From NCBI GenBank assembly GCA_029210625.1, contig JARGFU010000018.1:62001-126000 (forward strand): a stretch of 64,000 bases of DNA, given 5' to 3'. Every line of letters starts with the position of its first letter. Within the stretch, counting starts at the first letter, position 1. Below the pieces are notes generated by a model. It saw only the letters and a list, made by a program, of their open reading frames with translations, was not told where the DNA came from and searched no databases. The DNA comes from Deltaproteobacteria bacterium. GTDB taxonomy: Bacteria > Myxococcota > Myxococcia > SLRQ01. Shown piece by piece: positions 7,468 to 33,182 of this stretch. Made by a program: the position numbers and the translations under genes.

Positions 7468-7606
7468 GCTCGAACCGGGTGGAGGCCTCCGGTCAGACGG
7501 AACTCAGGCGGGCTGCTTCCCCGTTCCGACCTTCTGGACCTCCCGAAACAATCGATGAATTTCGGGAACTTGGACGTTCGACGGTATCCCGGGGCGTCAC
7601 CTGGCG

Positions 7607-8320
7607 TCAATTCGCCTCTTCCGGCGGGATGAGAGCCTTGAGGGGCACCACCACCGGCCCCTCGTCGGCGATCGCGATGGCCGCGGGCCCCGTCAGGACC
7701 CCGCCCGACCCCACCACCGTCAAGCTGCCGCTCATCCGGTCAGCGGCCAGGCAGTAGAAGACGGTGCCGACCGGGTGGCCGCCCACCTCCAGCACCGGCG
7801 CCTCGCAGGGGTGGACCCGCAGCACCTTCCAGTCCTCGACCGGCTCTCCCGCGACGAGGTAGTGGGGCCCGTAGCCGAGCCGGGTCATCGCCGAGAGCCC
7901 CTCCTGGAGGGGCGCCGGGCTCTCCGGCAGCGGGCCGGGCTCGCCCCCCCCGAGGAGGAGCTGGATCCGGGCCTGCTCCAGGGCGATCTGGGCGATCTTG
8001 TCGGCGGTCACCAGGGCCCCGGGACGGGCGTCGGGGATCACCAGGGCCTCGAGCACCACCGTCAGGAAGAACACCAGGTAGACCAGCCGGACCCGGCGGG
8101 CGTCCCCCGCCTTCCAGGCCGCGTGGATCGCCACCAGCCCCAGCGCCAGGACCGCGACGAGGACCGGCCCCCAGAAGAGCACCACCGGCTTGCGGTCGAC
8201 CGCGGCGACCGGCGCGTCGGCCACGGTCAGGAAGAGGTTCACCTCGCGCCAGGACCAGGCGGCGAGGATGGCGGTGAGGATCGCGACGGGCGCGACCTCC
8301 CAGCGGCGGGCGGTCTGCAT
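7607..8320 (-). CDS. Membrane protein of unknown function, last gene of the ABC operon
   Basis: A 237-residue protein starting with ATG at 8320, whose A is the last base of the upstream permease stop (TGATG), so translation is probably coupled. Three hydrophobic helices occupy the first half (PVAILTAILAAWSW, PVLVAVLALGLVAIHAAW, LVYLVFFLTVVLEALVI). The second half looks like a soluble extracytoplasmic domain ending in a beta-rich region. I do not recognise a family. Its position after an ABC ATPase, a permease and a lipoprotein-like protein suggests it supports the same envelope function. Confidence 0.7.
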   Translation of the reverse strand: MQTARRWEVAPVAILTAILAAWSWREVNLFLTVADAPVAAVDRKPVVLFWGPVLVAVLALGLVAIHAAWKAGDARRVRLVYLVFFLTVVLEALVIPDARPGALVTADKIAQIALEQARIQLLLGGGEPGPLPESPAPLQEGLSAMTRLGYGPHYLVAGEPVEDWKVLRVHPCEAPVLEVGGHPVGTVFYCLAADRMSGSLTVVGSGGVLTGPAAIAIADEGPVVVPLKALIPPEEAN

Positions 8321-9612
8321 CAACCACCTCCCAGGGCGCGGGTGGGATCCAGGCGCGCCGCGCGCAGCGCCGCGGGCGCGGCTCCGCCCAGGGCGAAGAG
8401 CAGCGCCGCCAGCAGCGCGCCGGGCAGGAGCCAGAGCGGCCAGGTGAAGAAGGACTCGGGCTTGAAGGGGAAGTCGGGCATCCAGGAGAGCGCGGCCACG
8501 TCGGTGCCGAGCGCGGCGCCGAGACCGAGGGCCACCCCCATGATCCCCCCGAGGAGGCCCGCAGCGGCGGCCTCACCGAGCACGACGCTCGCGACGTCCC
8601 GGCGGCGCGCCCCCACCGCGCGCATCACGCCGATCTCCCGGGTGCGGGCCACGACGCCGGCGAAGGCGGCCCGGGCGATGGCCACCGCGGCGAGCCCGAG
8701 GATCAGGAAGGAGAGGAAGGAGAGCGCGCCGGTGGTCAGCCAGATCGCGCCGCCGACCTGCTCGGCCAGGCGGTGCTGGTCGTCCTTGATGGCGAGCCCC
8801 ATCCGCTCCACCTTCGCCTTGATCTGGGCGGCCCGCTCCACCTGATCCAGCTCCAGCACGACGGCCTGGTACTCCCCGGCGGCCTCCTCCCCGCCCCAGC
8901 GGCGGTTGAGCTCGCGCACGGTCTCCAGGGGCAGGGTGACGCCGCCGAGGAGGGCGCGATCCGAGACGCCGACCAGCTCGAGGGTCAGGTCGGTGGAGGG
9001 ACCCCGCCGCGCGCCGCTGGCGACGTAGGAGCGCCCCAGGGTGAGGGGGAAGCGCAGGCCGGTGACCATGGCGGGGTCGAGCTTGGGCAGCCCCCGGGAG
9101 GTGGCGAAGCCGTGGTTGTAGACCTCGAGGAGGCGCCGCGAGATCACCACCGGCACCACGCCCTCGGCGTCGGGCTGGAAGGCCTGCCCGGCCGGCAGGT
9201 CCCCGGCCAGGTAGTCGCGCTCCACGCCCTGCCCGATGATCTCCAGCCCCATCCGCAGGCGGTGGCCGAAGAAGTCCCCGTCGTAGCGGCTGACGGCCGG
9301 GGGGAGCAGCTCCATCTTCCGGTAGAGGCGCGCCACGCCGGGCAGGACCTCGAGGCGCCCGAGGGCTGCCTCGTCGAGCTTGCCGCCGCCGAGGAGGGAG
9401 CCGAGGGCCACCTTCGAGGGCACCACCTCGAGGTGGGTGGCCTCCACCGGGAAGATCTCCTGACGGACGATGCGGGAGATCCCGGCGCCCAGCCCCACGA
9501 AGTAGACGAAGGCGGCGACCCCCACCGCCACCCCGGCGCTCGAGAGGAGGAAGGCGCGGCGGTCGCGGCGCAGGTTCATCGCGACCAGGTGAGACCAGCG
9601 GCGCGGCTTCAT
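8320..9612 (-). CDS. ABC transporter permease, LolC/MacB/FtsX type
   Basis: A 430-residue permease with the MacB/LolCE plan. One N-terminal membrane helix (about 22-42, LSSAGVAVGVAAFVYFVGLG) is followed by a large periplasmic domain (about 45-285). Three C-terminal helices follow (SFLSFLILGLAAVAIARAAF; AAGLLGGIMGVALGLGAAL; WPLWLLPGALLAALLFALGG). The cytoplasmic loop REIGVMRAVGARRRDV is the characteristic FtsX-family coupling motif. Such permeases work with an ATPase to extract lipoproteins or move envelope substrates by mechanotransmission. It overlaps the ATPase gene upstream by ATGA. Only one permease is present, so it probably acts as a homodimer. Confidence 0.9.
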   Translation of the reverse strand: MKPRRWSHLVAMNLRRDRRAFLLSSAGVAVGVAAFVYFVGLGAGISRIVRQEIFPVEATHLEVVPSKVALGSLLGGGKLDEAALGRLEVLPGVARLYRKMELLPPAVSRYDGDFFGHRLRMGLEIIGQGVERDYLAGDLPAGQAFQPDAEGVVPVVISRRLLEVYNHGFATSRGLPKLDPAMVTGLRFPLTLGRSYVASGARRGPSTDLTLELVGVSDRALLGGVTLPLETVRELNRRWGGEEAAGEYQAVVLELDQVERAAQIKAKVERMGLAIKDDQHRLAEQVGGAIWLTTGALSFLSFLILGLAAVAIARAAFAGVVARTREIGVMRAVGARRRDVASVVLGEAAAAGLLGGIMGVALGLGAALGTDVAALSWMPDFPFKPESFFTWPLWLLPGALLAALLFALGGAAPAALRAARLDPTRALGGG

Positions 9613-10301
9613 CGGGCGCCCTCTCCCACCTCGGCCGGCTCGAGGCGTCCCTCGACCAGGCGCAGCACCCGCGAGGCCCGCTCGCTGACCCGCGCCTCGT
9701 GGGTCGCCACGACCAGGGTCATCCCCTTCGCGTGCAGCTCCCCGAAGAGATCGAGGATCTTCTGCCCGGTGGCCTCGTCGAGGTTCCCGGTGGGCTCGTC
9801 GCAGAGGAGGATCCGCGGCCGGGCCGCGAGCGCCCGGGCGATGGCCACCCGCTGCCGCTCGCCTCCGGAGAGCGCGTCGGGCCGGCGATCGGCGAAGGCC
9901 TCGAGGCCGACGGCCGCGAGCATCTCGCGGGCACGCTCGCGCAGGGCGGCGTCGGGGTCGTCCGGGCGGGCGAACCAGAGGCCCAGCACCACGTTCTGCA
10001 GGGCGGTCATCGCCGGGACCAGGTTGAAGGACTGGAAGACGAAGCCGATCTCACCGGCCCGCAGCCGGCTGCGGCCGTCGTCGTCGAGCGCCTTCAGATC
10101 GGAGCCGGCGACCGAGGCGCTGCCCTGGAAGTCGGAGTCCAGGGCGCCGATGAGGTTCAGGAGGGTGCTCTTGCCCGAGCCGCTGCGGCCCAGGATGGCC
10201 AGGTAGTCCCCGCTGCCGACCTCCAGGTCCACCGCGTCGAGCACGGCGCGCTCCTGCGCGCCATCGCGATAGGACTTGCTGACCTGGGAGAGACGGATCA
10301 C
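9609..10301 (-). CDS. ABC transporter ATPase, LolD/MacB-like
   Basis: A 230-residue ATPase energising the neighbouring permease from the cytoplasmic face. Visible motifs are Walker A GRSGSGKST, the Q-loop region FVFQSFNLVPAM, signature LSGGERQRVAIARAL, Walker B ILLCDEPTGNLDE and the switch histidine in VVATHE. The phrases NLVPAMTALQNV and DEPTGNLD are typical of the LolD/MacB/FtsE group. The start is GTG 10301, overlapping the upstream stop (GTGA), and it overlaps the permease gene by 4 nt, indicating one transcript. The substrate, whether lipoprotein, peptide or something else, cannot be told. Confidence 0.93.
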   Translation of the reverse strand: MIRLSQVSKSYRDGAQERAVLDAVDLEVGSGDYLAILGRSGSGKSTLLNLIGALDSDFQGSASVAGSDLKALDDDGRSRLRAGEIGFVFQSFNLVPAMTALQNVVLGLWFARPDDPDAALRERAREMLAAVGLEAFADRRPDALSGGERQRVAIARALAARPRILLCDEPTGNLDEATGQKILDLFGELHAKGMTLVVATHEARVSERASRVLRLVEGRLEPAEVGEGAR

Positions 10302-15286: not shown

Positions 15287-15841
15287 ATGGTTCGCATCGA
15301 CAAGGTCTACACGCGGGGCGGAGACGGGGGAGAGACCAGCCTGGTCGGCGGGCGCCGGGTCCGGAAGGACGACGCCCGGGTGGAGGCCTACGGCGCGGTG
15401 GACGAGCTCTCCTCCACCCTGGGCCTCTGCCGGGCCGCCCTGGCCGGCGACGAGGGGCTCTCGGGGCTGGAGCAGGAGCTCGCGGCCATCCAGCAGCGCC
15501 TCTTCGACCTCGGCGCGGAGCTCGCCAGCGACCGGGCCGGCGGCAGCATCGACGCCGACGCGGTCACCCTCCTCGAGAGCGCCATGGATCGGATGAGCGA
15601 GGAGCTCGCGCCCCTGGAGTCCTTCATCCTCCCGGCGGGAGGCGAGGTCGCCGCCCGCCTCCACCTCGCCCGCACCATCTGCCGGCGGGCCGAGCGCCGG
15701 AGCATCGGGCTGCTCGAGGAGGGCCTGCGCCCCGAGCTGATCCAGTACCTCAACCGCCTCTCCGACTACCTCTTCGTGGCGGCGCGGCACGCCAGCCGCA
15801 TCCTCGGCCAACCCGAGACCCTCTGGACGCCGGGCGGCTAG
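15287..15841 (+). CDS. Cob(I)alamin adenosyltransferase, PduO type
   Basis: Transfers the adenosyl group of ATP to cob(I)alamin to make coenzyme B12. The 184-residue protein begins MVRIDKVYTRGGDGGETSLV, the PduO ATP-binding signature (YTRxGDxGxTxL). It contains VEAYGAVDELSSTLG and, near the C-terminus, RTICRRAERR and LIQYLNRLSDYLFVAAR, all family hallmarks. Start ATG 15287 is preferred over 15239, which falls inside the terminator. No cobalamin biosynthesis genes are nearby, so it may serve scavenged B12. One radical-SAM-type protein in the locus at 18.6-33.2 kb might use cobalamin, but nothing shows a direct link. Confidence 0.93.
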   Translation: MVRIDKVYTRGGDGGETSLVGGRRVRKDDARVEAYGAVDELSSTLGLCRAALAGDEGLSGLEQELAAIQQRLFDLGAELASDRAGGSIDADAVTLLESAMDRMSEELAPLESFILPAGGEVAARLHLARTICRRAERRSIGLLEEGLRPELIQYLNRLSDYLFVAARHASRILGQPETLWTPGG

Positions 15842-18590: not shown

Positions 18591-19988
18591 TCAGAGCCCG
18601 CGCAGCCAGGCCAGCAGGCGGGCGTCCTCCACCTCGGCCATCCGCAGACGGTTCGCCACCCGCTCCAGGAAGGCCAGCGCGCCCTCGAAGCCCAGGAAGG
18701 GCGTGGGGTGGAGGGCGTGGGTGTAGACCGAGGGGAAGCCCAGCTCGACCAGCGCCGGCTCGGGGCTCTCGAGCACCCCGCCGAGGAGGTTGGTGACGAC
18801 GAGGTGCAGGCGCGCCTCGGCGATCACCTCGGCCTCCAGCAGCCGCAGGGAGCGCATCGTGGGGTGGGTGAGCAGCCTCCCCTCGGGCACGCCGAGGTCG
18901 CAGCCCTCCCGCGGGCCCTGGCGGTTGCTGATGAGGGCGAAGGCGAGCTCGCCCCCGAGGAGGTGGATCATCTCCGCGAAGCCCTCGGCGAGGTGCGGAT
19001 CGCCGATGTAGCCGGCCCGCAGGCCCTGGAAGACCAGCGGCACCAGCCACTCCAGGCGCGGGACCGTCGAGGCGTAGCCAGCCTCGCAGAGGGCGGCGGC
19101 CTCCTCCTCGACCCCGAAGTGCGCGCCGATCGCCTTCAGGAAGCGCTCGCTGGCGTCGAAGCCGAAGGGCAGCTCGAGCTCGAGCACCGGCCGGTCGAGG
19201 CGCCGCCGGAGGGCGCGCGCCGCCGCCCGCCCGTAGGGGAGCGAGAGGATCGTGCCGGCCTCGGCCACCGCGCCGAGGGCCTCGACGCTCACGCCGGAGG
19301 GCCAGGTCGAGCAGAGCTCGAGCCCCAGCGCCTCGAGGTAGCGGCCCAGCAGCGCGAGGTTGGCGTGGTGGTCCTGCTCGTTACGATCCCAGAGGTAGCC
19401 GACCAGGGCGACCTTCTGCGGATCGGCCTCGGCCCCGGGGAGGGGCAGCTTCTCGGCGAGGGCCAGCAGCGCGGCGTCGAAGCCGTCCAGCCAGTCCCCG
19501 GAGATCGGCGACCCGCGCAGGGCGAAGCAGGGGACGCCGCAGGCCTCCTCGGCCTCGACGCAGAGGCGGTCGTAGTCGGCGCCGGTGATCGCCGCCATGG
19601 GCATCGGCGCCAGCATGACGGCGCCGGTGTCCTCGGCCTGCCCGAGGCGCTCGATCAGCTCCCGCACCGGCTCCTCACGGGAGCCGATGAGCGACGAGGG
19701 ATAGAGCGCCGTGTTCGCGACCCGGTGCAGGCCGGTCAGGGAGGTGAGGTTGGCCTCGAGGTCGTGGTTCCCCTCGAGGTACTGGGTCTTCAGGTGGGTG
19801 CAGTCCGGCCCCTCCACCACCATCCGCAGGTCCGGGACGGCGTTGGCCAGGACGTAGACGCCGACCATGTGGGAGAAGGTGGCGCGCTGGCTGAAGTCCG
19901 GCGCCCTCGCCTCCTCGCGCAGCGCCTCGAGCCGCTGCCGCGCGAGCTCGCGGATGCGCGCGCGCAGCTCCTCGACGGTGCGGCTCAC
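18591..19988 (-). CDS. Nitrogenase-like small subunit 1 (BchN-like fold)
   Basis: A 465-residue member of the nitrogenase component 1 superfamily. VPDLRMVVEGPDCTHLKTQ (Cys63) aligns by eye with the BchN stretch around its middle cluster cysteine. The place where BchN has a third cysteine reads APMPMAAITGADYD, with Met instead of Cys. PFGFDASERFLKAIG matches the superfamily PxPxG-x3-T/S-x2-FL strand-loop. YIGDPHLAEGF marks the start of the C-terminal Rossmann domain, and ELGFPSVYTHALHPTPFLGF its end. It starts with GTG overlapping the large-subunit stop (GTGA), so it is the last gene of rSAM1-large1-small1. It is clearly a paralogue of small subunit 2 (26748). Substrate unknown. Confidence 0.85.
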   Translation of the reverse strand: MSRTVEELRARIRELARQRLEALREEARAPDFSQRATFSHMVGVYVLANAVPDLRMVVEGPDCTHLKTQYLEGNHDLEANLTSLTGLHRVANTALYPSSLIGSREEPVRELIERLGQAEDTGAVMLAPMPMAAITGADYDRLCVEAEEACGVPCFALRGSPISGDWLDGFDAALLALAEKLPLPGAEADPQKVALVGYLWDRNEQDHHANLALLGRYLEALGLELCSTWPSGVSVEALGAVAEAGTILSLPYGRAAARALRRRLDRPVLELELPFGFDASERFLKAIGAHFGVEEEAAALCEAGYASTVPRLEWLVPLVFQGLRAGYIGDPHLAEGFAEMIHLLGGELAFALISNRQGPREGCDLGVPEGRLLTHPTMRSLRLLEAEVIAEARLHLVVTNLLGGVLESPEPALVELGFPSVYTHALHPTPFLGFEGALAFLERVANRLRMAEVEDARLLAWLRGL

Positions 19989-21823
19989 GCTCCCCCCACC
20001 CGCCGGCCGCTGGCGTCGCGCTGCAGGTAGCGACCGAAGCGGCGGAAGTAGGGGGTGCGGGCGATCCGCAGCAGGCGCTGCAGGCTCCGCACGGCCCCGG
20101 CGGCCCCCACCTCCAGGTGCTGGAGGGAGAAGAGGTTCTTGCCGCTGCCGGTGATCCGCCAGTCGAGGCTGTGGTGGCTGAAGACCGCGCCGGCCTCCAT
20201 CTCGCCGAGGCGCGCCATCATGCCCTCGTAGGAGTCGAAGCCCTTGATGCGGTGCCGCTCGGGCTCCCGGAAGCTGCGGTGCAGCTCCGGGGTGACCTGC
20301 ATCTCCTCGCGGCTCTCGAAGTAGATGGCCACCTCCAGGCCGAAGCCCATCTCCTCGAGGAGAGGCAGGAGGGGCACCCCCCAGAAGTGCTCGGGCTCGA
20401 GGAGGAAGCGCACCTCCCGGGCGCGGCAGCAGAGGCCGAGGAACTCCCCGCGGGCGCGCTCGCGCAAGGCGGCGAAGGTCTCCGCGTGGGGCGCCAGCGC
20501 GGCCTCGGCGGCCTCCCGGGCCGCCTCCCCGAGCTCGAGGGCGTCGGCGATGGCGGCCAGCCAGGCCCGGGTGCCCTCGACGCCATAGGGCGCCGGCCGG
20601 ATCAGCCGGGGGCGCGGGCTGCCGCGACCGAGCTGCTCGTAGAGCAGCCCCCAGGCCTCGTTCACCGCCACCACGTCGAGGTCCGCGGCCGGCAGCGCGT
20701 CGATGCGCTCCTCCGAGAGCTCGGGCACCAGCAGGACGTTCACCTCGACCCCCATCGCGGCGAGGAGCGCGATCAGCTCGTCCCGCCCCGGCGTGGGGTG
20801 GAGGCCCAGGAGGTTCAGGCGGGGGGCCTCCCCGCTCGCCCGGCGGCGCTCCCCGGCCCGCGCCTCCGCGATCTTCCGGCGATCGACGAGGAGGGGCTCG
20901 AAGACGGTGTCCATCGAGTTGGGCGAGATGGTCAGGTAGTGAGTCGAGCGCTGGCAGTCCTTCGCGCAGCGGCCCACCTCCGAGCCCACGTCCTCGCCGG
21001 TGACCATCGGCACGCAGGTGTTGGCGACGAAGAGGCTCTTCCCCTCGCGGTTGGCGACCGCGACGCCCTGATCGAGGACCTGCCGGAGCTTCTCCGGGTT
21101 GCCCATGATCACGTCCCGCTCGTCGAGGTCGGTCGAGAGCATGGTCCCCTCGAGCAGCGAGAGCTGCGGGGCCCGGTCCAGCCGGATCCGGTGCTCCCAG
21201 GGGTAGGCGACCTGCGAGACCACCGGGGCGCCCCCGTGCGGCGTGACGTGATCGCACTCGAGGTCGGCGTGCTGCACGAAGACGAAGAGGCTCAAGGGAT
21301 CGATGGAGTCGAGCTGCCCGCGGGCGATCTCGTCCACCGCGAAGAAGTCCGCGAAGGCGTTCGAGTCGCCCCAGGTGTCGAGCAGCGAGTCGAGCCGCCC
21401 GGGGTGGCGCTCGGCCGGCGGCGCGGGCAGGCCCCGCTCGTCGACCTGGGGGTCCCGGGCGAAGAGCGCCCCGAGGGAGGTGAGGGTCTCGTCGGCCAGA
21501 CGGGAGCGGCCCTGCCGGCCGACGCGCTCGGCGAAGGCCCGGGCGGGGGTCCCGGTGGCGTAGTGGAGGACGAGGTGCTCGGTCTCGAGGAGGCCGCGCT
21601 TACCCTCGCTCTTCGGCTCGAGCTGGAAGATCACCGGCCGCCGCGGGCCGCAGCGTATGGCGAGGGTCACGCCGGTGCGGGTCCAGGCCGCCGCCTCGAT
21701 CCCGAAGGCCTCGACCCCTTCGATCCCGAGGAGACGCTCCAGCGCCGCCCGGGTGGCCGCGCCGGCGAGCATCCGGCGGCGGCGGCCGAGGGCCGCCATC
21801 CTGGCCTGGGGGGCCGGGCTCAT
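19985..21823 (-). CDS. Nitrogenase-like large subunit 1 with one accessory N-terminal domain
   Basis: A 612-residue protein. Residues about 20-125 form an accessory domain not found in nitrogenase, BchN or BchB. Residues about 140-600 have the component 1 fold. Candidate cluster ligands are Cys190 (HADLECDHV) and Cys270 (FVANTCVPMVTGEDV). The latter corresponds to the TPTC/STC motif of BchB and NifK, and RDVIMGNPEKLRQVL just before it matches the BchB/NifK strand with GS-x-EK. RPAPYGVEGTRAWL is the superfamily PxPxG loop. The middle 'GPxGC' cysteine of nitrogenase is absent. ATGA overlaps the rSAM1 stop upstream and GTGA the small subunit downstream, so the three proteins are probably made together. 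Confidence 0.85.
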   Translation of the reverse strand: MSPAPQARMAALGRRRRMLAGAATRAALERLLGIEGVEAFGIEAAAWTRTGVTLAIRCGPRRPVIFQLEPKSEGKRGLLETEHLVLHYATGTPARAFAERVGRQGRSRLADETLTSLGALFARDPQVDERGLPAPPAERHPGRLDSLLDTWGDSNAFADFFAVDEIARGQLDSIDPLSLFVFVQHADLECDHVTPHGGAPVVSQVAYPWEHRIRLDRAPQLSLLEGTMLSTDLDERDVIMGNPEKLRQVLDQGVAVANREGKSLFVANTCVPMVTGEDVGSEVGRCAKDCQRSTHYLTISPNSMDTVFEPLLVDRRKIAEARAGERRRASGEAPRLNLLGLHPTPGRDELIALLAAMGVEVNVLLVPELSEERIDALPAADLDVVAVNEAWGLLYEQLGRGSPRPRLIRPAPYGVEGTRAWLAAIADALELGEAAREAAEAALAPHAETFAALRERARGEFLGLCCRAREVRFLLEPEHFWGVPLLPLLEEMGFGLEVAIYFESREEMQVTPELHRSFREPERHRIKGFDSYEGMMARLGEMEAGAVFSHHSLDWRITGSGKNLFSLQHLEVGAAGAVRSLQRLLRIARTPYFRRFGRYLQRDASGRRVGGA

Positions 21824-23181
21824 CCCGCCACGCTCCGCCGGCCCCGCTCGTCCAGCGGACGCAGCTCGTCGAGGCCGAAGGTCCTGGCGTAGGCCCGGGG
21901 CACGCCCAGGCAGGCGGCGTTCGCCGCGCAGCCGCCACAGGTCTCGGCCTTCACCCAGTCCCTGCCCTCCTCGAGGGTGCCGCTCTCCTGCTGGACGGCC
22001 GCGCTCATGTGGCGGCCGTCGGCCGGGAGGAAGCTGCCCTCGGGCAGGGTGCAGGGCGGCACGGTCGCGTGGGTCGAGGAGAGGAGGCTGGTCACCTCGA
22101 AGCCTCGCTCGCGGGCGAGCGCGAGGGCCTCGTTCACCTTCGGCACGATCTCGCTGTAGCGCACCAGGTAGCGGGCGGCGTCGGGGTTGGTCTCCGGGCA
22201 GATGAGCGCCGAGACGTGGTAGGTCGGCCGGACCGCTGCCTCGAGGCCAGGCAGCCCCGCCACCAGCACCGGCAGGTGCTCGAGGTTCAGGGAGCTGACG
22301 ACGGTGTTGAGGATGAGCTGGTGGCCCGCGTCGAGGAGCCGGCTGATGCCCTCGAGGGCCTCGAGGAGCAGACCCTCGGTGCCGGTGCAGGCGTCGTAGA
22401 TCTCCTCCGAGAGGCCGTGCAGCGAGACGAAGAAGGAGAGCTTGGGGCTGGCCGGGATCTGCGCCGGATCGATGTCGCGGGCGAAGCGCACCGCGTTGGT
22501 CTGGACCTGCACCCGGCCGATGCCCGGGTGCTCCAGGGCGGTGAGCAGCTCCTCCCGGAAGGTGGGCTTGAGGGTGGGCTCGCCCCCGGTGAGGGAGAAC
22601 ATCGCCCCCGGGAGGAGCTCCGCGGTCTGCTCGATGCAGGCGACCACCGTCTCGGTGCTGGGCAGGTCGTGCTTGGGTCCGGAGCAGAAGGGGCAGCGCT
22701 GGTTGCAGCCCGAGAGGGTGCGCACCAGCACCTCGGCCTCCTCCTCCTCGCCGGCGGTGGAGCGCTCCACCGTCACGAAGGGGAAGAGGCGCATCAGGGT
22801 GTCCTCGGGCGTGCCCGGCGTGCGCAGGATGGCCGCGGCCCCCGGCAGGCCGCCGGGCAGGCGAGGCTCGAGCTTCTGCAGCACCCGCAGCACGGCCTCC
22901 AGGATCCGCTTGCCGTCCTCCCCCAGCTCCCGGCGCCCCTCGTAGGCCACGGCGAAGCGCCCTACCTCCTTGAAGCTGCGCTGATCCGGCCGCCGGGGTG
23001 AGATCCGCACCCGCAGCCGGTCGGGGGCCGGCGCCCCGAAGGCGAGCTGGAGGTGACCGTCCCCGAGGGAGGCGTCCCAGACCTCGGCGCCGAGCCGGAT
23101 CAGGGCCGCGTAGAAGGCGGAGAGCCAGCGGTGCTCCTCGGGGAGGTGGGTGCGGAGCGGTGGTGCGGGGCGATCGTTCAA
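21820..23181 (-). CDS. Radical SAM protein 1 with C-terminal cysteine cluster (NifB-position analogue)
   Basis: A 453-residue radical SAM enzyme. Residues about 15-110 resemble the accessory domain seen in the neighbouring subunits. The core starts with LSGCNQRCPFCSG (Cys159, 163, 166; CX3CX2C) and has the SAM-binding FSLTGGEPTL. The C-terminus holds CGGCAANAAC (about 415-424), a SPASM-like pattern for a further FeS cluster, with more cysteines upstream (ALICPETN, VPPCTLPEG). It heads the operon with large and small subunit 1. The TTG at 23181 was chosen because the frame above has no better start and coding character ends there; this start is uncertain. NifB occupies a comparable place in nif clusters, but no NifX/NafY-like domain is visible, so it is not NifB. 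Confidence 0.85.
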   Translation of the reverse strand: MNDRPAPPLRTHLPEEHRWLSAFYAALIRLGAEVWDASLGDGHLQLAFGAPAPDRLRVRISPRRPDQRSFKEVGRFAVAYEGRRELGEDGKRILEAVLRVLQKLEPRLPGGLPGAAAILRTPGTPEDTLMRLFPFVTVERSTAGEEEEAEVLVRTLSGCNQRCPFCSGPKHDLPSTETVVACIEQTAELLPGAMFSLTGGEPTLKPTFREELLTALEHPGIGRVQVQTNAVRFARDIDPAQIPASPKLSFFVSLHGLSEEIYDACTGTEGLLLEALEGISRLLDAGHQLILNTVVSSLNLEHLPVLVAGLPGLEAAVRPTYHVSALICPETNPDAARYLVRYSEIVPKVNEALALARERGFEVTSLLSSTHATVPPCTLPEGSFLPADGRHMSAAVQQESGTLEEGRDWVKAETCGGCAANAACLGVPRAYARTFGLDELRPLDERGRRSVAG

Positions 23182-23557
23182 ACCCTGGGGTTCCCTCGTG
23201 AATCTCCAGTGAGCCGGGCCAAGACCACGAGGCCCCCGGCGGCGCGGGACATGATAGGAGTGCCGCCACCGGCCCCGCAACCGGCGAATTTTCCTGGGCC
23301 GGGTCACCCGAAGGATTTCGGCATTTTCTGCGCCCGGCCCAGCGAGTAATATCGAGCCCACGATCGAAGAGCGGTCGTGCTTCGTTGGTGGGGACCAGGA
23401 AGTGACCGAAAAGAAGGGGAGCCCGCACGCCGGGTGATCCGAAGAGAAGAACGACTGCCCGACAACCCGTGGGGGAGCACCCTCGTGCACGTGGTCCGTA
23501 GAGACGACGGGCTCCTGGGATCCTGCTCGCCCGGCGGAGCAAGGACCACCAACGATC
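23182..23557. promoter_or_regulatory. Divergent control region of the nitrogenase-like locus
   Basis: A 376-bp gene-free stretch between rSAM1 (leftward) and the NifH-like gene (rightward). CCCACGATCGAAG (23357-23369) and CTTCGTTGGTGGG (23380-23392) form an inverted repeat with 10 of 13 matches, which could be an operator or leader hairpin. An A+T-richer patch lies near 23286-23350. AAGGA precedes the NifH-like ATG by 9 nt. I found no convincing sigma-54 (GG-N10-GC) or sigma-70 promoter and no known riboswitch. Confidence 0.5.
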
Positions 23558-24382
23558 ATGGAACGCATCGCGATCTACGGAAAGGGAGGCGTCGGAAAGT
23601 CCGTCGTCGCCACCAGCCTCTCGGCGCACTTCGGGATGAGCGGCAAGCGGGTCCTGCACGTGGGCTGCGACCCCAAGCACGACTCCGCGATCCGGCTGCT
23701 GGAGCCCGAGGCCGGTGACGTCCGCACCATCCTCGACGTCCTCGGGAACAACCCCCACGCCGAGGCCACCACCGAGATCCTGAACATCGGCCGCCACGGC
23801 ATCCACGCCTGTGAGGCGGGCGGCCCCCCGGCCGGGCTGGGCTGCGGCGGGCGTGGCGTCGCCCGGACCATCGAGTACCTCGACGAGGTCGAGTTCCTCG
23901 AGGAGGGCAACTACGACGTCGTCATCTTCGACGTCCTCGGCGACGTCGTCTGCGGCGGCTTCGCGGCCCCCCTGCGCAGCGGCTTCGCCGAGAAGGTCGC
24001 CATCGTGGTCTCCGAGGAGCCGATGGCCATCTTCGCGGCCAACAACATCGCGCGGGCCGTGGTGAGCTACCACCGCAACGGCGTGGTCCTCGCGGGGCTG
24101 ATCGTCAACCTCCGCGGCAAGGACGTCGACTACTCGCACATCGAGCACTTCGCCAAGGAGATCAACACCAAGATCTTGGGCGTCGTGCAGCGCGACGAGC
24201 GCATCATGCAGGCCGAGCGCGAGCAGAAGACCATCGTCGAGTTCGCGCCCGACTCGGCCTCGGCCGAGGGGCTGACCGCGCTGGCCGGCGTGCTGCAGAC
24301 GATCGACGTCAGCGACACCCCCCTGCCCACGCCGATGGAAGACGGGGTCCTCTACGAGTTCATGCGGACCTGGGGGCAGTGA
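23558..24382 (+). CDS. NifH/BchL-like ATP-dependent iron-sulfur reductase
   Basis: A 274-residue homodimeric-type electron donor that uses ATP to pass electrons to a component 1 partner. It opens MERIAIYGKGGVGKS (deviant Walker A with the signature Lys), then VGCDPKHDS (switch I), GLGCGGRGV with Cys96 and FDVLGDVVCGGFA with Cys132. These two cysteines per chain ligate the bridging [4Fe-4S] cluster in NifH/BchL. The extra CEAGGPPAG stretch matches NifH's CVESGGPEPG. Length is like NifH and BchL. It overlaps large subunit 2 by one base (TGATG). It is the only reductase in the locus, so it would have to serve both subunit pairs. Confidence 0.95.
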   Translation: MERIAIYGKGGVGKSVVATSLSAHFGMSGKRVLHVGCDPKHDSAIRLLEPEAGDVRTILDVLGNNPHAEATTEILNIGRHGIHACEAGGPPAGLGCGGRGVARTIEYLDEVEFLEEGNYDVVIFDVLGDVVCGGFAAPLRSGFAEKVAIVVSEEPMAIFAANNIARAVVSYHRNGVVLAGLIVNLRGKDVDYSHIEHFAKEINTKILGVVQRDERIMQAEREQKTIVEFAPDSASAEGLTALAGVLQTIDVSDTPLPTPMEDGVLYEFMRTWGQ

Positions 24383-26751
24383 TGGCGAGCGAGGCCTTCG
24401 ACCGGCTCCGGGGGCAGCGCCAGACCGGCGGCAAGCTCTCCCGTCTCCGCTTCTCCCACGCCCTCGGGCTGGAGAAGGCGCCTCCGGCCTTCGCGATCCG
24501 GGTCGTGAGCTGGATCGACGATCACCTCGAGGTCCTCCTCGGGGTGGGCCCGGGCAAGCAGGTGATCCTGGAGATCGTCGAGCAGACCGGCGGCCTCGAG
24601 GGCCTCGCGGCCACCGAGCACCTGGTGCTGCGCTACCGCGGGGACGAGATGCCCCGCAAGCTCGCCAAGCGCCTCGCGGCGGCCTTCCAGGCTCGCCTCG
24701 GCCCGGCCGACCTCGCGCGCATCGCCGGCTCCCTGGCCGAGGACCCCGAGCTGCGCGAGGGCCTCCCCGCCGGCCTCGGGGGCGGCGACCGCACCGGTCC
24801 CCCACCCTCCTCCGGCGGCGCCCCGGCCGTCGACGACGAGGTGGGCGAGCACGAGAAGCAGCTCAAGGGCGCCCGCCGGGCGGGCGGCCAGACCTCGCGC
24901 ATCCGCTTCGACAAGTTCCTCGGCCTCGACGACGCCCCGCCCCCCTTCGGCGTGTCCTCCCTCGGCTGGTTCGACGATCACATCGAGCTGGGCGTCGAGA
25001 CCGACGAGGGCCGCGACATCCGCTTCGCCATCTTCCGTCGCGATCCCGAGATCAAGGGCTTCGTCACCACGCCGAAGCTGGTGATCACCTACCAGGCCAA
25101 GGACATCCCCGACTTCCTGGCCGAGACCATCGGGCGGGTCGCCCCGCAGCGCCTCCACGACCTGGGCATGAACGACCTGGCCGGCGTCCTCCTGGACGAC
25201 CTGGATCTGGGCTCGCCCGGAGAGGCGATGCCCTCGGCGGACAACGATCGGCCGGACAACCTCCTGGACACCTGGGGGGGCGAGGACTCCTACGCCGACT
25301 TCTTCGCCGGCGGCGAGATCGCCCGCGGCCAGCTCGACTCGGTGGACATCTCCCGCTTCTCCCGGAACGTGCAGCACTGCGACCTCGAGTGCCTCTTCGT
25401 GAACCCGCACGCCAACGCTCAGGTCGTGACCATGGTCGACTTCCCCTGGGAGGACCGGGTCCGGAACATCGGGGTGCCGATGGCCGAGCGCGTGGAGAAG
25501 GTCGAGAAGCCCTGGGACCCCAACGACTCCATGGTCGCCACCGACCTCGGCGAGCAGGACGTCATCCTCGGCGCCCCCGAGAAGCTCCGCGCCGTGATGG
25601 AGCAGGTGGTCAAGCGGCCGAACCCCGAGAAGAAGCCCCTCTTCGTGGCGAACACCTGCGTCCCCACCGTCACCGGCGAGGACGTCGAGTCGATCGTCAA
25701 GGAGTTCCGGAAGAAGACCGACTTCCCGATCCTCTACCTGACGGTGACCCCCAAATCGATGAACGACGTCCTCGTCGATCTGCTGGTGAACACCCGGCTG
25801 AAGGCCGAGGCGAGCGCGGGGGATCCCGATCCCCACTCGGTGAACCTCATCGGCTTCACCGAGGGCCGGGCGCTCGGCGAGGTCGAGCTGCTCCTCGGCG
25901 CGGTGGGGATCCGGGTGAACACCCGCCTCCTCCCGGCCCTCGAGGTGGAGATCCTCGAGGCCCTGCCCCGGGGCGCCCTGAACATCGTCTACCCCAACAG
26001 CCTCTGGAACCACCTCTACGAGCAGGTGCAGCGCGACTCGCGGATCCCCTCGATCTCGCCGCCGGCGCCCTTCGGCTTCGAGGGGAGCCGCGCCTGGCTG
26101 AAGGCCGTCGTGGACGCGCTCGGTCTCCAGATCGACTTCGAGGCCCGCTGGGCGGAGCTCTGCGCGGCGCACGAGGAGGGCTGGGCTCAGGTGCAGGAGC
26201 GCTGCCCGGGCAACAACCTGGGCATGGTGCTCCGGGGCGAGGAGCTGCAGTACATCCTCGACCCCTCCCAGACCTGGGGCATCCCGGTCGCGGGCATGGC
26301 GCAGGAGATGGGCTTCGGCCTGGAGGTCTTCCTCGCCGCCCGGAACGAGAAGGCCGCCGAGCGGCTCGGCAAGCAGATCCTGCCCCTCCTCGACGAGGCG
26401 CAGGGCAGCAAGGTGGTGCCCTTCTCCAGCTTCGCCGAGATGCGCGAGGTGCTCGCCGCCAGCGAGTGCGGCGCGCTCCTGACCAACCACTTCTTCGACT
26501 GGCGGGTCGGCGAGGCGGGCAAGAACCGCTTCTCGCTCCAGCACTTCGAGATGGGCCTGGCCGGGGCCGTGCGCACCGGCCGGCGCCTCCTGCAGGTGCA
26601 GGGCACCCCCTTCTTCCGCAAGTACGGTCGCTACCTCCACCGCACCACCGAGGGCATCCGGGATCCCCTCCACGAGTGGCCCGAGCCGGCGCCCGCGCCC
26701 GAGGACCCGGAAGGCGCGGCGCAGAAGAGCGACGAGGAGGCCGCGGCATGA
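24382..26751 (+). CDS. Nitrogenase-like large subunit 2 with a duplicated N-terminal accessory domain
   Basis: A 789-residue protein. Two copies of the accessory domain precede the core: residues about 18-110 (SRLRFSHALGLEKAPPAFAI) and about 170-262 (SRIRFDKFLGLDDAPPPFGV), joined by a Gly/Pro/Ser linker. The core from about 290 parallels large subunit 1: DTWGGEDSYADFFAGGEIAR, Cys333 and Cys337 (HCDLEC), EQDVILGAPEKLRAVM, Cys426 (VANTCVPTVTGEDV), the PxPxG loop APFGFEGSRAWL and a final NHFFDWRVGEAGKNRFSLQH. The GPxGC cysteine is absent, as in its paralogue. ATG 24382 overlaps the NifH-like stop, and its own stop overlaps small subunit 2 (ATGA). It is about 175 residues longer than large subunit 1, mainly from the duplication. 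Confidence 0.87.
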   Translation: MASEAFDRLRGQRQTGGKLSRLRFSHALGLEKAPPAFAIRVVSWIDDHLEVLLGVGPGKQVILEIVEQTGGLEGLAATEHLVLRYRGDEMPRKLAKRLAAAFQARLGPADLARIAGSLAEDPELREGLPAGLGGGDRTGPPPSSGGAPAVDDEVGEHEKQLKGARRAGGQTSRIRFDKFLGLDDAPPPFGVSSLGWFDDHIELGVETDEGRDIRFAIFRRDPEIKGFVTTPKLVITYQAKDIPDFLAETIGRVAPQRLHDLGMNDLAGVLLDDLDLGSPGEAMPSADNDRPDNLLDTWGGEDSYADFFAGGEIARGQLDSVDISRFSRNVQHCDLECLFVNPHANAQVVTMVDFPWEDRVRNIGVPMAERVEKVEKPWDPNDSMVATDLGEQDVILGAPEKLRAVMEQVVKRPNPEKKPLFVANTCVPTVTGEDVESIVKEFRKKTDFPILYLTVTPKSMNDVLVDLLVNTRLKAEASAGDPDPHSVNLIGFTEGRALGEVELLLGAVGIRVNTRLLPALEVEILEALPRGALNIVYPNSLWNHLYEQVQRDSRIPSISPPAPFGFEGSRAWLKAVVDALGLQIDFEARWAELCAAHEEGWAQVQERCPGNNLGMVLRGEELQYILDPSQTWGIPVAGMAQEMGFGLEVFLAARNEKAAERLGKQILPLLDEAQGSKVVPFSSFAEMREVLAASECGALLTNHFFDWRVGEAGKNRFSLQHFEMGLAGAVRTGRRLLQVQGTPFFRKYGRYLHRTTEGIRDPLHEWPEPAPAPEDPEGAAQKSDEEAAA

Positions 26752-28188: not shown

Positions 28189-30336
28189 TCAGCCCTGGTC
28201 CTCGCCGAGGGGGGCGAGCTCGCCGGAGGCGAGGCGGGCCTCGATCACCTTGAGGATGCCGGCGATGTCGGCGCGGTCCTGCGGGGCGTTGCCGCCGTGG
28301 AGGCGATCGACGGCCTCTCGCAGCAGGTCCCGGGCCTGCTCCATCCGGGCGGTGTCCAGCATGATGCTGGTCTCGTTGCGGTTGCCGGTGGGCAGGAGGA
28401 AGCGCACCCCGACCCCGTGCTCCCGGGCCAGGCGCGCGAAGGCCGCGAGCTCGTGGAGGTTCTGCTGGAGCACCACGAAGCTGTAGCGGATCGAGCCGGC
28501 GAAGCGCCCCTCGCGCGAGGCCCGCAGGAGCCCCTCGAGGGAGGCCAGGATCCGCTCCCAGGCCAGGCCCTTGTTGACCGCGGCGTAGGTCTCGGCGCTC
28601 GCGGCGTTGAGGCTGACGGTCAGGGCCGAGAAGGGCACCCGGAGGTAGCGCTCGAGGACCTCGGGCGCGAAGTAGGAGCCGTTGGTGGTGAGGTGCACCC
28701 GCAGCTGGGGCACCTCCTCGAAGGACTGCCCGGCCAGGAAGTCCCGGAAGTGGCTGGAGGCCAGGGGCTCTCCCCCGTTCGCGTCGAGGATCAGCAGCCG
28801 GTCGAGCCAGCCCGCGAGGCCCGCGTAGAAGGTGGGCCCGAGCTGGTCCTCGGGGCCCTGGCGGTTCACGCAGCACATGATGCAGTCGTAGTTGCAATGG
28901 CTGGTCACCGCGAGGCAGAGCTCGAAGGGCACCGTCTCGATCTCGCTCTTCCCCTCGAGCATCGCCTCGATGGTCGCGATCTGGTTCTCGACCGCCGCGC
29001 CGGGGCCTCCCCGCAGGATCACCGAGGAAGGGCGGGCCGTGCCGCCCGCCAGCACCGGGCAGTCTTTCGAGCAGGTCTCGGGGTGGCCGGGCGAGGCCAC
29101 GGCCCGCCGGATCCGCTGGAGGTACTCGCCGCGCCAGAGGGTCTCGGGCTCCGCGCCGGTGGGCGCCTCGACGTACTGCGCGAGGTAGTCGGCGCAGCAG
29201 GGGCCGTAGATGCCGCTGCTGTTGTGCTCCAGGCGCACCCAGGGGAGCACGCAGGGCAGCGCGGGGAGCGCCTCGGCCGGGAGGATCTCGGTGAGCTGGA
29301 GGCGGGCCTCGGGGCGGCCGGTGAGCAGCAGCCGGGCCTGGTCCTGCCAGGTCGGCGCCACCACCGCCGGGAGGGCCCCGGCCGGCACCCGGGCGGCGGG
29401 GACGTTCGTCTGCAGCAGGCGGGGGCTCGCCTCGCCCAGGGCGAGGAGGGGCAGGAAGTCGTCGAGGCCCTGGCCGTCCGGGACCTCGGGCAGCCGCAGG
29501 TGGAGGGGCTCGCACTGCCGCGCCGCCACGGCGGCCGCCAGGGCCATCACCTGCTCGGGGTTGCGGGCGTCCACCGGCTCGGCGCAGAGCACCACCCGGG
29601 GCCGCTTCTCCTGCTCGAGGATCTTTCGCAGGAAGCCGCCGAGGCGCCGGAGGTCCAGGCCCTCGAGCCCGGAGCCGCCCTCCCGCCCGGCCTCGAGGAC
29701 GACCTCGAGGTCCACGAGGCGCAGGAGGTCCTCGTCCAGCTTCAGGCGGCCGCGGGAGAGGAAGGTCCTCGCCCGCAGGGAGATCCGGATCAGGTCGGCG
29801 CCGCCCTCGCTCAAGATCCGCACCGCCGTCCAGAGCTCGGCGTCCAGGTCGTCCGCGCCGATCCGCACCTCCACCGCGCCGGCCTCGTGCCGCACCTGCA
29901 GCTCCGCGACCAGCCGCGCGAGGTGATCGCGCAGATCGCCGGGCGCGCGCCGCCGGCCGCCGCCGAGATCGAGGCGCAGGGCGCTGCGCTGCCCGAGGCG
30001 GCCGAGCCAGGCGCGCACGCCCGCCTCGCCGGCCCGCTCGACGATGCGCGCCACCAGGGCCTCGATCGCCAGGGCGTGGGCCACCGGCGGCAGCGCCGAG
30101 GGGAGGATCTCCAGCCACGCGTCGCCCACCGGCACGGCGGCCGCCGCGCCGGCCTCGGGCGCCTCGGCGCGCAGGATCATCCGCAGCCGCGAGTCGAGCC
30201 CGCGGCGCAGCTCCAGCCGCGGCCGGTCGGAGAGCTCCAGGGTGTCGATCCACCAGCCGCCCCCGAGCTGCTCTCCCAGGCGGAAGGGCACCCAGGGCAC
30301 GACCCTCGTGCCCGCCAGCGCCGTGGGCAGGCTCAC
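28189..30336 (-). CDS. Radical SAM protein 2 with a SPASM-like region ahead of the barrel
   Basis: A 715-residue protein. The first 110 residues contain a stretch resembling the locus accessory domain (LRMILRAEAP...DAWLEILPSALPP). A second alpha/beta region spans about 120-345. At 362-426 is a SPASM-like cysteine set (PCVLPWVRLEHNSSGIYGPC, Cys381, then TCSKDC) of the kind that normally follows a radical SAM barrel. The barrel comes after it: HCNYDCIMC (Cys481, 485, 488), ANGGEPL as the SAM-binding GGE, HLTTNGSYF and SLNAASAETY. The order is therefore swapped relative to typical SPASM enzymes. GTG 30336 overlaps the stop of rSAM3 (GTGA), so the two form an operon. Substrate unknown; a peptide or a cofactor precursor are both possible. 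Confidence 0.85.
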   Translation of the reverse strand: MSLPTALAGTRVVPWVPFRLGEQLGGGWWIDTLELSDRPRLELRRGLDSRLRMILRAEAPEAGAAAAVPVGDAWLEILPSALPPVAHALAIEALVARIVERAGEAGVRAWLGRLGQRSALRLDLGGGRRRAPGDLRDHLARLVAELQVRHEAGAVEVRIGADDLDAELWTAVRILSEGGADLIRISLRARTFLSRGRLKLDEDLLRLVDLEVVLEAGREGGSGLEGLDLRRLGGFLRKILEQEKRPRVVLCAEPVDARNPEQVMALAAAVAARQCEPLHLRLPEVPDGQGLDDFLPLLALGEASPRLLQTNVPAARVPAGALPAVVAPTWQDQARLLLTGRPEARLQLTEILPAEALPALPCVLPWVRLEHNSSGIYGPCCADYLAQYVEAPTGAEPETLWRGEYLQRIRRAVASPGHPETCSKDCPVLAGGTARPSSVILRGGPGAAVENQIATIEAMLEGKSEIETVPFELCLAVTSHCNYDCIMCCVNRQGPEDQLGPTFYAGLAGWLDRLLILDANGGEPLASSHFRDFLAGQSFEEVPQLRVHLTTNGSYFAPEVLERYLRVPFSALTVSLNAASAETYAAVNKGLAWERILASLEGLLRASREGRFAGSIRYSFVVLQQNLHELAAFARLAREHGVGVRFLLPTGNRNETSIMLDTARMEQARDLLREAVDRLHGGNAPQDRADIAGILKVIEARLASGELAPLGEDQG

Positions 30337-33182
30337 GAGCGCTGCCCCTCGGTGCGCCCCAGCTTCTTCAGCGCCGCCTCGAGGTAGCGGGCGAAGGCGC
30401 GGGCCGCGCGATCCCTCGCCGGCGTGTCGATGGGTGAGTCGTGGGGATGAGAGATCCCCAGCGGCCCCACCCGCAGGTAGGAGGGCTCGTCGGGGGCCTG
30501 CCGAGCGACGTCGAGGAGCAGCGCCTCGCCGGCCCGCTCGAGGGTGACCTGCGCCCAGCGCTCGCCCTGGTGCCGGGCCGCGCTCAGGGCGTAGCCCCCG
30601 AAGCGGCGGTCGTTGCGCGCCGCGACCTCGACGATCTGCGAGAGGAGCGCGGCGAGGTGGCGCCCCTCCTCCTCCTCGGGGCCACCCACGATCCGGTTCG
30701 TGCGGTAGGTCTCCTCGTCGGCGCTACCCACCTCCGAGCCCAGATCGATCATCGCCGCCGAGCGGGGCGCGAAGCGCAGCGCGAGGAGCATGCGGAGGAA
30801 GTCTCGCTGGCGCGGCGGAGCGGCGTGGGACCAGATGAAGGCCCGGCCGCCGAGGGCCACCTGCACCTTGCCCTCTCGCAGGACGTAGAGGTTCTGCTCG
30901 TCCTGCACCACCGTGTCGCCGCGCGCCGCCCGGCGCAGGAGGGGGTGGGAGCCCGCCACGACGCCGGCCCGGAAGGAGAAGCGATCGGCGGCGGGGTCCT
31001 CGTCCGTCACGAGCTGCAGCGCCTCTCCCTGGCCGTCGAGGAAGATCAGCCAGGGGCTCTCCAGCCGCCGCCGGAAGGCGTCGATGGCCGCCGGGCTCTC
31101 CTTCTCCACGGCCCGGGCGTGGACGGCCTCGGCGAACCGCCGGGTCTCCTCGCAGTTCAGGCTGCAGGGGATGTGCTGGAAGTAGGCGTTGCCGCCGGGG
31201 TTCATCAGCCAGCTCACCTCTCCCTCGGCCTCGAGGCGCCCCAGGAGGTGCAGCCAGGTATAGGAGGTCCGCAGGTAGGGGTTGTGGCTGGAGAAGCGCC
31301 GGCCGCAGCACTCGGGGTAGCCCAGCAGCACCCCCACCTGCGCCGAGAGCTCGCCCCAGAGCGTGTCGTCCTGCGCCGCGTCCATCTCCTCGGTCAGGCG
31401 CAGCGCCTCGGCGACCTTCTCGGGATCCCGGCCGACGAAGACCTCCTCCCGGACCAGGCCGGTGTTGTGGCCCACGCGCCGCAGGACGGTGAGGCCCTCG
31501 GCCTCGAGCCCCTCGAGGGTGTAGCCCTGCTCGGCCAGCCCCTCGGTCTCGTCCCGGAGCACCGGCTTGATGCCCTCGAGCATCGGGAAGAGCGGGCCGA
31601 AGCTCTCGCCGTGGATCTCGGTCCCCTCTCCTTGCGGCTCCGGCTCGCCGGGGACCTCCGTCTCCCGGGTCATGGCGTCGCCCGCGAGGTAGGGCCGCGC
31701 CAGCTGGATCAGCCGCTCCTCGTCGGCCCCGGGATCCTCGATGGCCGCGTCGACCAGGGCCTGGGCGATGTGCACCTCGCCCCGGGCGCGCTTGTCGCTC
31801 ACCAGCTCGGTCAGCCGGCCCAGCCCCTCGGCGTTGTGGATCCCGTCGGCGAGGCGAAGGAAGAGCCGGCTGACCAGCTCGACCCCCGGGTTCGCGAAGG
31901 CCCAGGGGTGCTCCTCGGCGTAGAAGTTCCGCTGCGCGGTGTCGAGCGACGCGTCGTCGTAGGCGTCGCGGAGCAGTCCGTCCCGCTCGGCGAGGGGATA
32001 GAGGGGGAGGGACTGGCGCAGCCGCAGCCGGCTGGTGAGGATCTTGCCGCACATCTCGTGCAGCCCGCCCCGCTCGATGATGGCGAGGTTGAGGGCGAGG
32101 TTCTCCAGCCGGGTCCAGGGAGAGAAGAGGAGGAGGGAGAGGCCCCCGTGCTCGCGGAAGCCGAAGTGCCGCGGGTAGTCGCCCTCCAGCTCGAGCAGGA
32201 GCAGGGGCAGCCCCAGGTTCTCCCGCCAGCCCAGGCCCTTGTTGAAGCGGTCGAGCTCCTCGGTGACGAAGCTCTCGATGCCGACCAGGGAGAGCTCCAG
32301 GCGGTGCTCGCTGCCGGCCAGCTTCTTGAGCGCCGAGCGCAGCTGGTCCTGCACCCGGAGGATGGTGTCCGAGCGCCCGTCGAGGAGCAGCGCCACCGGC
32401 GGGGGATCCCGCTCGAGGAGCGCGTCGACCACCGCCTCGATGTTGCGCAGGATGGGCTCGCCCACGGCCCGCACCTGCAGGCGCTCCCGCCAGGGCCGGT
32501 GGGTCTCCACCAGCGCGTCGATCTGGGTGGAGAAGAGCCCCACCGGATCCACCTCCCAGCGCACGCGCTCGGTGGGCCGCTCGCAGAAGGTGCAGCCCCC
32601 GGCGAAGTCGCAGCCCGAGAGATCGAGATCGTCGAAGAAGGGGTTACGGCGGATCGTCTTGCGGTAGGAGCACTCCTCGCCGCAGATGAGGAAGGGGAGC
32701 GAGGGCGCGGCGTCGGCGGCGGCGTTGCCCGCCTCCCAGCCGAAGAAGGGGCGCACGCCCTCGAAGAGGGAGACGTTGGGATCCTCGACGGGGGCCTCGG
32801 GGGCGACGAAGCGCAGCAGCTCCACCGGGTTGGCCGGAAGCTCCCGCAGGGTCACCGCCCCCTCGCTGGTCCTCCCCTCCTGGAGGAAGGCCACCTGGGC
32901 TCCGGGCCAGCGCTCCTCCAGCCAGGCCACCAGGCTCGGCGCCGGCTCGAGGTTGGAGACGATGGCGGTGGGGGGCGTGTCCTCGAGGGCCGCGGCCAGG
33001 CCCGCGAGCTCGTCGGGCTCCAGCCCGTAGCCCTGCTCCTCCTGCCGGCTGCGCGCCGCCGCGTCGAGCCCGAAGCGGCGCCAGTGCACAGCGACGCCCG
33101 CGTCCCGCAGGTAGCCGGCGAGGAAGGGAAAGGAGAGTGAGCGATGAAAGCGGTCGACCGCGATCATCTCGATGAGCAGCAT
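30333..33182 (-). CDS. Radical-SAM-type protein 3 with CX5CX2C motif and DUF483-like domain
   Basis: A 949-residue protein. The N-terminus (1-130) has an alpha/beta plan like the B12-binding domain of cobalamin radical SAM enzymes (MLLIEMIAVDRFHRS; SFPFLAGYLRDAG; IVSNLEPAPSLVAWLEE), but no DxHxxG motif is seen, so cobalamin binding is doubtful. The cluster motif is CDFAGGCTFC (Cys191, 197, 200), CX5CX2C, as reported for HmdB-type enzymes rather than the usual CX3CX2C; Cys167 and Cys171 lie just before it. Around 600-690, GVLLGYPECCGRRFSSHNPY and HIPCSLNCEETRRFAEAV match DUF483, a mostly archaeal domain. The last 100 residues resemble the accessory domain. ATG 33182 faces trpS across about 100 bp. 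Confidence 0.75.
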   Translation of the reverse strand: MLLIEMIAVDRFHRSLSFPFLAGYLRDAGVAVHWRRFGLDAAARSRQEEQGYGLEPDELAGLAAALEDTPPTAIVSNLEPAPSLVAWLEERWPGAQVAFLQEGRTSEGAVTLRELPANPVELLRFVAPEAPVEDPNVSLFEGVRPFFGWEAGNAAADAAPSLPFLICGEECSYRKTIRRNPFFDDLDLSGCDFAGGCTFCERPTERVRWEVDPVGLFSTQIDALVETHRPWRERLQVRAVGEPILRNIEAVVDALLERDPPPVALLLDGRSDTILRVQDQLRSALKKLAGSEHRLELSLVGIESFVTEELDRFNKGLGWRENLGLPLLLLELEGDYPRHFGFREHGGLSLLLFSPWTRLENLALNLAIIERGGLHEMCGKILTSRLRLRQSLPLYPLAERDGLLRDAYDDASLDTAQRNFYAEEHPWAFANPGVELVSRLFLRLADGIHNAEGLGRLTELVSDKRARGEVHIAQALVDAAIEDPGADEERLIQLARPYLAGDAMTRETEVPGEPEPQGEGTEIHGESFGPLFPMLEGIKPVLRDETEGLAEQGYTLEGLEAEGLTVLRRVGHNTGLVREEVFVGRDPEKVAEALRLTEEMDAAQDDTLWGELSAQVGVLLGYPECCGRRFSSHNPYLRTSYTWLHLLGRLEAEGEVSWLMNPGGNAYFQHIPCSLNCEETRRFAEAVHARAVEKESPAAIDAFRRRLESPWLIFLDGQGEALQLVTDEDPAADRFSFRAGVVAGSHPLLRRAARGDTVVQDEQNLYVLREGKVQVALGGRAFIWSHAAPPRQRDFLRMLLALRFAPRSAAMIDLGSEVGSADEETYRTNRIVGGPEEEEGRHLAALLSQIVEVAARNDRRFGGYALSAARHQGERWAQVTLERAGEALLLDVARQAPDEPSYLRVGPLGISHPHDSPIDTPARDRAARAFARYLEAALKKLGRTEGQRS

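Follow-up and report, generated by a model that had tools for sequence, protein, structure and literature searches.

The window, the 64,000-nucleotide stretch of DNA analysed here, contains a gene, P0001, that adjoins genes for nitrogenase-like and radical-SAM proteins. The set comprises one NifH-like gene, two NifD-like/NifK-like pairs and two radical-SAM genes besides P0001, and neighbouring genes overlap by four bases within three transcription units, P0001-g21, g18-g19-g20 and g17-g16-g15.

30333..33182, minus strand: P0001, 949 amino acids plus stop; predicted radical-SAM protein with an N-terminal Rossmann domain, a barrel with a split motif, a DUF483 domain and a C-terminal accessory domain
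28189..30336, minus strand: g21, second radical-SAM protein, with CNYDCIMC; its first 4 bases are shared with the end of P0001
26748..28187, plus strand: g20, NifK-like subunit
24379..26751, plus strand: g19, NifD-like subunit with a duplicated N-terminal accessory domain
23558..24382, plus strand: g18, NifH-like ATPase with a P-loop and both cluster cysteines, under all NifH/CfbC/BchL/BchX cut-offs
21820..23181, minus strand: g17, radical-SAM protein with CNQRCPFC and an N-terminal accessory domain; best NCBIfam match HxsC, sub-threshold
19985..21823, minus strand: g16, second NifD-like subunit, nitrogenase component-1 fold
18591..19988, minus strand: g15, second NifK-like subunit

P0001 lies in the frame that scores highest as coding across 30333-33182 in a codon-based gene call, and its exact translation on the minus strand is the ORF that an earlier sequence-only reading of this DNA had placed there. 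The three motifs quoted in that reading all occur in the translation, CDFAGGCTFC at residues 191-200, GYPECC at 621-626 and HIPCSLNC at 670-677. The protein is divided into the following regions.

32733..33182, minus strand: N-terminal domain, residues 1-150; degenerate B12-type Rossmann domain without DxHxxG
31833..32720, minus strand: radical-SAM barrel region, residues 155-450, assigned from an OxsB profile match, Foldseek and the invariant R270, G301 and E303
32583..32672, minus strand: region of the cysteine codons C171 (32670-32672), C191 (32610-32612, not conserved), C197 (32592-32594) and C200 (32583-32585)
31143..31343, minus strand: DUF483 domain, residues 614-680, with C625/C626 in GYPECC and C673/C677 in HIPCSLNC
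30348..30671, minus strand: accessory domain, residues 838-945, common to the P0001 C-terminus, the NifD-like N-termini and the g17 N-terminus by hhalign

We found no match between P0001 and the Pfam Radical_SAM model (PF04055) at E<=1 in hmmscan, and the Pfam and NCBIfam scans assigned it to none of the HydE, HydG or biotin synthase families. PF04055 matches two of the seven members of our alignment A4 (best E 0.0073), and since this model misses known variants, its silence on P0001 lowers the radical-SAM claim without settling it. A profile of the P0001 family matched OxsB only among PDB sequences (E 1.7e-4), and Foldseek with the AlphaFold (AF2) model of P0001 returned OxsB (E 1.2e-7, probability 1.0), CysS (8.9e-5) and then AprD4, supporting a radical-SAM barrel in a model of moderate confidence. 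That model was built from seven sequences and has a mean pLDDT of 69.8, with low confidence at residues 171-205 and in the DUF483 domain; its TM-scores to the three structures are low, at 0.25-0.33 of the query length.

Ahead of the barrel, the predicted model has a Rossmann-type pattern of strands and helices, mostly at high pLDDT (E2-8, H18-27, E33-39, H41-47, H56-65, E73-76, H82-91 and E96-99). The sequence-only reading had described a degenerate B12-like N-terminus without DxHxxG; the motif is absent from the first 160 residues, and both the Rossmann-type pattern and the cobalamin-type nearest folds agree with that description. A missing DxHxxG does not in itself decide cobalamin binding. 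By profile and predicted structure, P0001 is closest to the cobalamin-type radical-SAM enzymes OxsB, CysS and AprD4, all three of which we take to have that architecture, and it would, as such an enzyme, cleave SAM. A cobalamin adenosyltransferase gene at 15287-15841 was considered as a hint of corrinoid chemistry and set aside, as none was recognised among the partly annotated neighbours of the relatives' clusters.

Relatives of P0001 were collected from its own genome and phylum, and five MAG loci were added by a contig scan. The scan worked with a four-sequence alignment, an earlier five-homolog alignment being too divergent; with the P0001 sequence alone it recovered no relatives, and none were found in the viral contigs and phage records searched. 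Across 15 aligned homolog barrel domains, C171, C197, C200, R270, G301 and E303 are among the invariant positions, and the conserved family motif is C-X25-C-X2-C. In 29 relatives, the first conserved cysteine stands 23-27 residues before the GCxFC pair (CX23-27CX2C), with a spacing of 25 in 19 of them; the pattern used for this count demands the first cysteine, so that the 15-homolog alignment is the independent test. From this conservation, C171, C197 and C200 are the most likely ligands of a [4Fe-4S] cluster in P0001, in what would be a CX3CX2C-type loop lengthened by about 22 residues between cysteines 1 and 2.

This assignment differs from that of the sequence-only reading, which had taken the CX5CX2C spacing of CDFAGGCTFC as a cluster motif parallel to that of HmdB. 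Residues 191-200 do have this spacing, and the same motif is found in HcgA, which resembles the HydE/biotin-synthase type (PMC10100467), so that P0001 might use it for an [Fe]-hydrogenase-like cofactor. Cysteine is found at the C191 position, however, in only 9 of the 29 relatives, most relatives having L, G, F, N, A, K or another residue instead, and the residue is Leu in L069, a locus with the same operon type as the window. Since CX5CX2C is not conserved in the family, in which C171, C197 and C200 are invariant instead, the parallel with HmdB fails; the nearest folds, OxsB and CysS, are moreover of the cobalamin type and not of the HydE/biotin-synthase type, and we consider an HmdB- or HcgA-like function extremely improbable.

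A further alternative is that P0001 is a scaffold only, with a dead barrel or a structural zinc site. The lack of a Pfam Radical_SAM match, the odd cysteine spacing and a decayed paralog in L069 without the cysteine loop would all suit such a protein, but neither the three cysteines nor the R and GxE motifs vary among 15 divergent homologs, and QueE provides a precedent for an extended loop between the first two cysteines (PMC4389238), making a catalytically inert P0001 very unlikely. The L069 paralog itself (7385-9868), which was left out of the main evidence, lies beside an intact copy, and has an in-frame stop and replacements of R270, E303 and K315. We additionally identified two very long ORFs, one of 1657 amino acids with two P0001-type cysteine motifs (L146:3984-8957), and one of 1397 amino acids with one P0001-type motif and one CX3CX2C radical-SAM motif (L143:7020-11213).

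The DUF483 domain (PF04467) that the sequence-only reading had proposed was confirmed, scoring 21.9 bits in hmmscan, under the Pfam cut-off of 25 bits, and 25.8 bits, over the cut-off, in the genome search, and matching 6 of the 7 members of A4 (best E 1e-6). The accompanying description of the domain as mainly archaeal was too narrow, as many bacterial genomes encode the fusion and a phage/prophage module of DUF483 and radical SAM had been reported before (PMC11437467). The four conserved cysteines of the domain probably ligate an auxiliary metal or Fe-S cluster. Apparent DUF483 matches in PMC7112168 were discarded as a prefix artefact of DUF4832. A further protein (L149:11279-13630), weakly similar to FAD-binding/tryptophan-halogenase proteins, has a C-terminal DUF483-type region.

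None of the nitrogenase-like proteins of the window reaches the cut-off of a known equivalog: g18 scores 256 bits against 394 for the nitrogenase NifH equivalog, and g19, g20, g16 and g15 are far under theirs. The predicted model of g16 has a nitrogenase component-1 fold, and the NifD-like proteins have two invariant cysteines, C190 and C270, aligned to the P-cluster cysteines of NifD. No conserved cysteine is aligned at the FeMo-co ligand position in 17 NifD-like proteins, although, as the NifDK-like alignments are divergent, the missing ligand is a reading of the alignment. In its sequences and predicted folds, the window set is a nitrogenase-like enzyme in the broad sense, with a NifH-type ATPase that has the cluster cysteines and a NifDK-fold core. 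A further NifH/D/K-like set was found in the same genome (C1; L066:8507-12822), in a region with DAHP synthase/chorismate mutase, peptidase U32 and methyltransferase genes.

A radical-SAM protein encoded beside such an enzyme could be its maturase. P0001 would then build or activate a metal cofactor for the NifDK-like protein, in the manner of NifB in nitrogenase and, perhaps, of MarB, IsrB and NfaB in other nitrogenase-like systems. In each of the Mar, Isr and Nfa systems, a radical-SAM "B" gene accompanies the HDK genes (PMC11423573), and in L069 and L140 a P0001 relative directly precedes a NifH-like gene. Against this, the only invariant cysteines of the NifD-like subunits are the two aligned with the P-cluster, three or more radical-SAM genes are present at several loci, and P0001 is nearest not to NifB but to substrate-modifying enzymes of the cobalamin type, so that we regard a maturase as unlikely.

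The C-terminal domain connects P0001 to its neighbours. In hhalign, the last approximately 100 residues of the P0001 family matched the N-termini of the NifD-like subunits with a probability of 91 and the g17-type radical-SAM proteins with 80, and the NifD-like N-termini matched the g17 N-terminus with 68, whereas all other pairs, controls included, remained under 1.5. For this domain, the AF2 models of P0001 and g16 agree in their predicted secondary structure, in which a run of strands stands between two helices. This domain would dock P0001, g17 and the NifD-like subunits together, or hold a common substrate. In g19 (24379-26751 of the window), it occurs twice, in tandem, at the N-terminus.

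Contigs that carry both a P0001-family gene (hereafter P1) and NifH/D/K-like genes were identified in at least nine genomes. They come from the window genome, G097, G105, G101, G195 (locus L069), G196 (with three such loci) and G375, and, by coordinates, from G210, G235 and G380; many of the linked loci are MAG contigs. The gene order is P1-rSAM-NifH-NifD-NifK-rSAM in G196 (rSAM, radical-SAM gene) and P1-NifH-NifD-NifK-fused rSAM in L069, and another G196 locus encodes a 914-residue ORF (L114:6711-9455, minus strand) in which a g17-like radical-SAM domain (residues 1-290) is fused to a NifD-like subunit (312-907). In the window's phylum, divergent nitrogenase-like genes were found in 7 of 9 P1-positive genomes and in 6 of 186 P1-negative genomes (Fisher p = 3e-8; p = 1e-4 with any PF00148 match counted), and in the phylum of G195, any PF00148 match was found in 18 of 33 against 14 of 156 (Fisher p = 2e-8), the significance being overstated in each case by tests that take genomes as independent. 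P1 proteins that are more alike also tend to have NifH neighbours that are more alike (Spearman 0.74, Mantel p 0.002).

These results uphold the tie to nitrogenase-like proteins at which the sequence-only reading had hinted, and since P0001-type genes adjoin nitrogenase-like genes across many bacteria that are only distantly related, the proteins of both kinds probably act together. The partnership is not universal, as P1 relatives are present without any nitrogenase-like gene in G071 and G137, and 15 of the 33 P1-positive genomes sampled in the G195 phylum have no nitrogenase-like genes. We additionally noted some eleven nitrogenase component-1-like domains at separate loci of the 3.1-Mb MAG G195 (L107, L108, L109, L110, L111 and L112).

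In G071, two P0001/DUF483 relatives and about ten radical-SAM genes surround HxsA4, HxsB, HxsD and HxsD-like genes (L008:4902-7390), with scores of 531 bits for HxsB (cut-off 370), 100 for HxsA4 (cut-off 55) and 58 for HxsD (cut-off 50). This clustering of a P0001 relative with a genuine His-Xaa-Ser system raises a RiPP-like alternative, in which P0001 and the other radical-SAM proteins would act on a peptide or protein that the NifHDK-like enzyme then reduces; the sub-threshold HxsC match of g17 is in keeping with it, and the small common accessory domain would suit a leader-peptide binder. We recognised no HxsA-like or other precursor gene in the window cluster, short of a systematic precursor search, and its sole sizeable gap, 23182-23557, holds no convincing ORF; the P1, radical-SAM, H, D and K genes of G196 are likewise closely packed, with little intergenic space. 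Modification of a peptide is accordingly an unlikely role for the system.

The explanation that we favour, at about even chances, is that P0001 is an uncharacterised enzyme of radical-SAM type and cobalamin-type architecture, and the dedicated partner of a nitrogenase-like reductase acting on one organic substrate. P0001 and the other radical-SAM proteins would modify this substrate through radical chemistry, and the NifHDK-like enzyme would perform an ATP-driven low-potential reduction on the same molecule, in an order of steps that we can only infer. The reductase would consist of the NifH-like ATP-driven component and a NifDK-like core in which the cysteines of the P-cluster site are present and that of the nitrogenase-type cofactor is absent. 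More tentatively, and with the balance slightly against it, we propose a widespread multi-enzyme system of several radical-SAM proteins and a cofactor-poor NifHDK-like reductase, with a common docking or substrate domain and one substrate, in which P0001 founds a C-X25-C-X2-C radical-SAM family.

New reactions of nitrogenase-like enzymes continue to emerge, in F430, bacteriochlorophyll, methionine and isethionate metabolism. The P0001-linked sets would add a further nitrogenase-like group, multi-copy in some genomes and present in two sampled bacterial phyla, together with a radical-SAM family that mostly escapes the Pfam Radical_SAM model. The fusion of radical-SAM and NifD-like domains and the common accessory domain allow a direct test of whether radical chemistry and ATP-driven reduction are coupled, and the corrected cysteine assignment names residues for mutagenesis. 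We found no description of a P0001/nitrogenase-like system in the open-access papers searched.

The system is not wholly new, as nitrogenase-like HDK sets are already known to be paired with radical-SAM "B" proteins, those of the MarB, IsrB and NfaB type stemming from unrelated lineages (PMC11423573). The P0001 system resembles NifB, MarB, IsrB and NfaB in the encoding of a radical-SAM gene with an HDK set, and differs in its radical-SAM architecture, in having several radical-SAM genes per locus, in the fusion of radical-SAM and NifD-like domains, and in the accessory domain held in common with the NifD-like subunits. With OxsB, CysS and AprD4, P0001 shares a Rossmann-type domain N-terminal to the radical-SAM barrel, and its GCxFC pair (C197/C200) corresponds in alignment to the CxxC of the OxsB cluster motif; unlike these enzymes, it has an insertion between cluster cysteines 1 and 2, and DUF483 and accessory domains. 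DUF483 is likewise tied to radical SAM in modules of the Thermus phages Cumys and phiMa and of prophages, with fusions noted in InterPro, although P0001 similarity was not found in our phage collection and the available part of the source does not mention nitrogenase-like genes (PMC11437467). Finally, QueE, a radical-SAM enzyme with an extended loop within its cysteine motif, has CX14CX2C (PMC4389238) where P0001 has about CX25CX2C, and differs from it in domains and genomic context.
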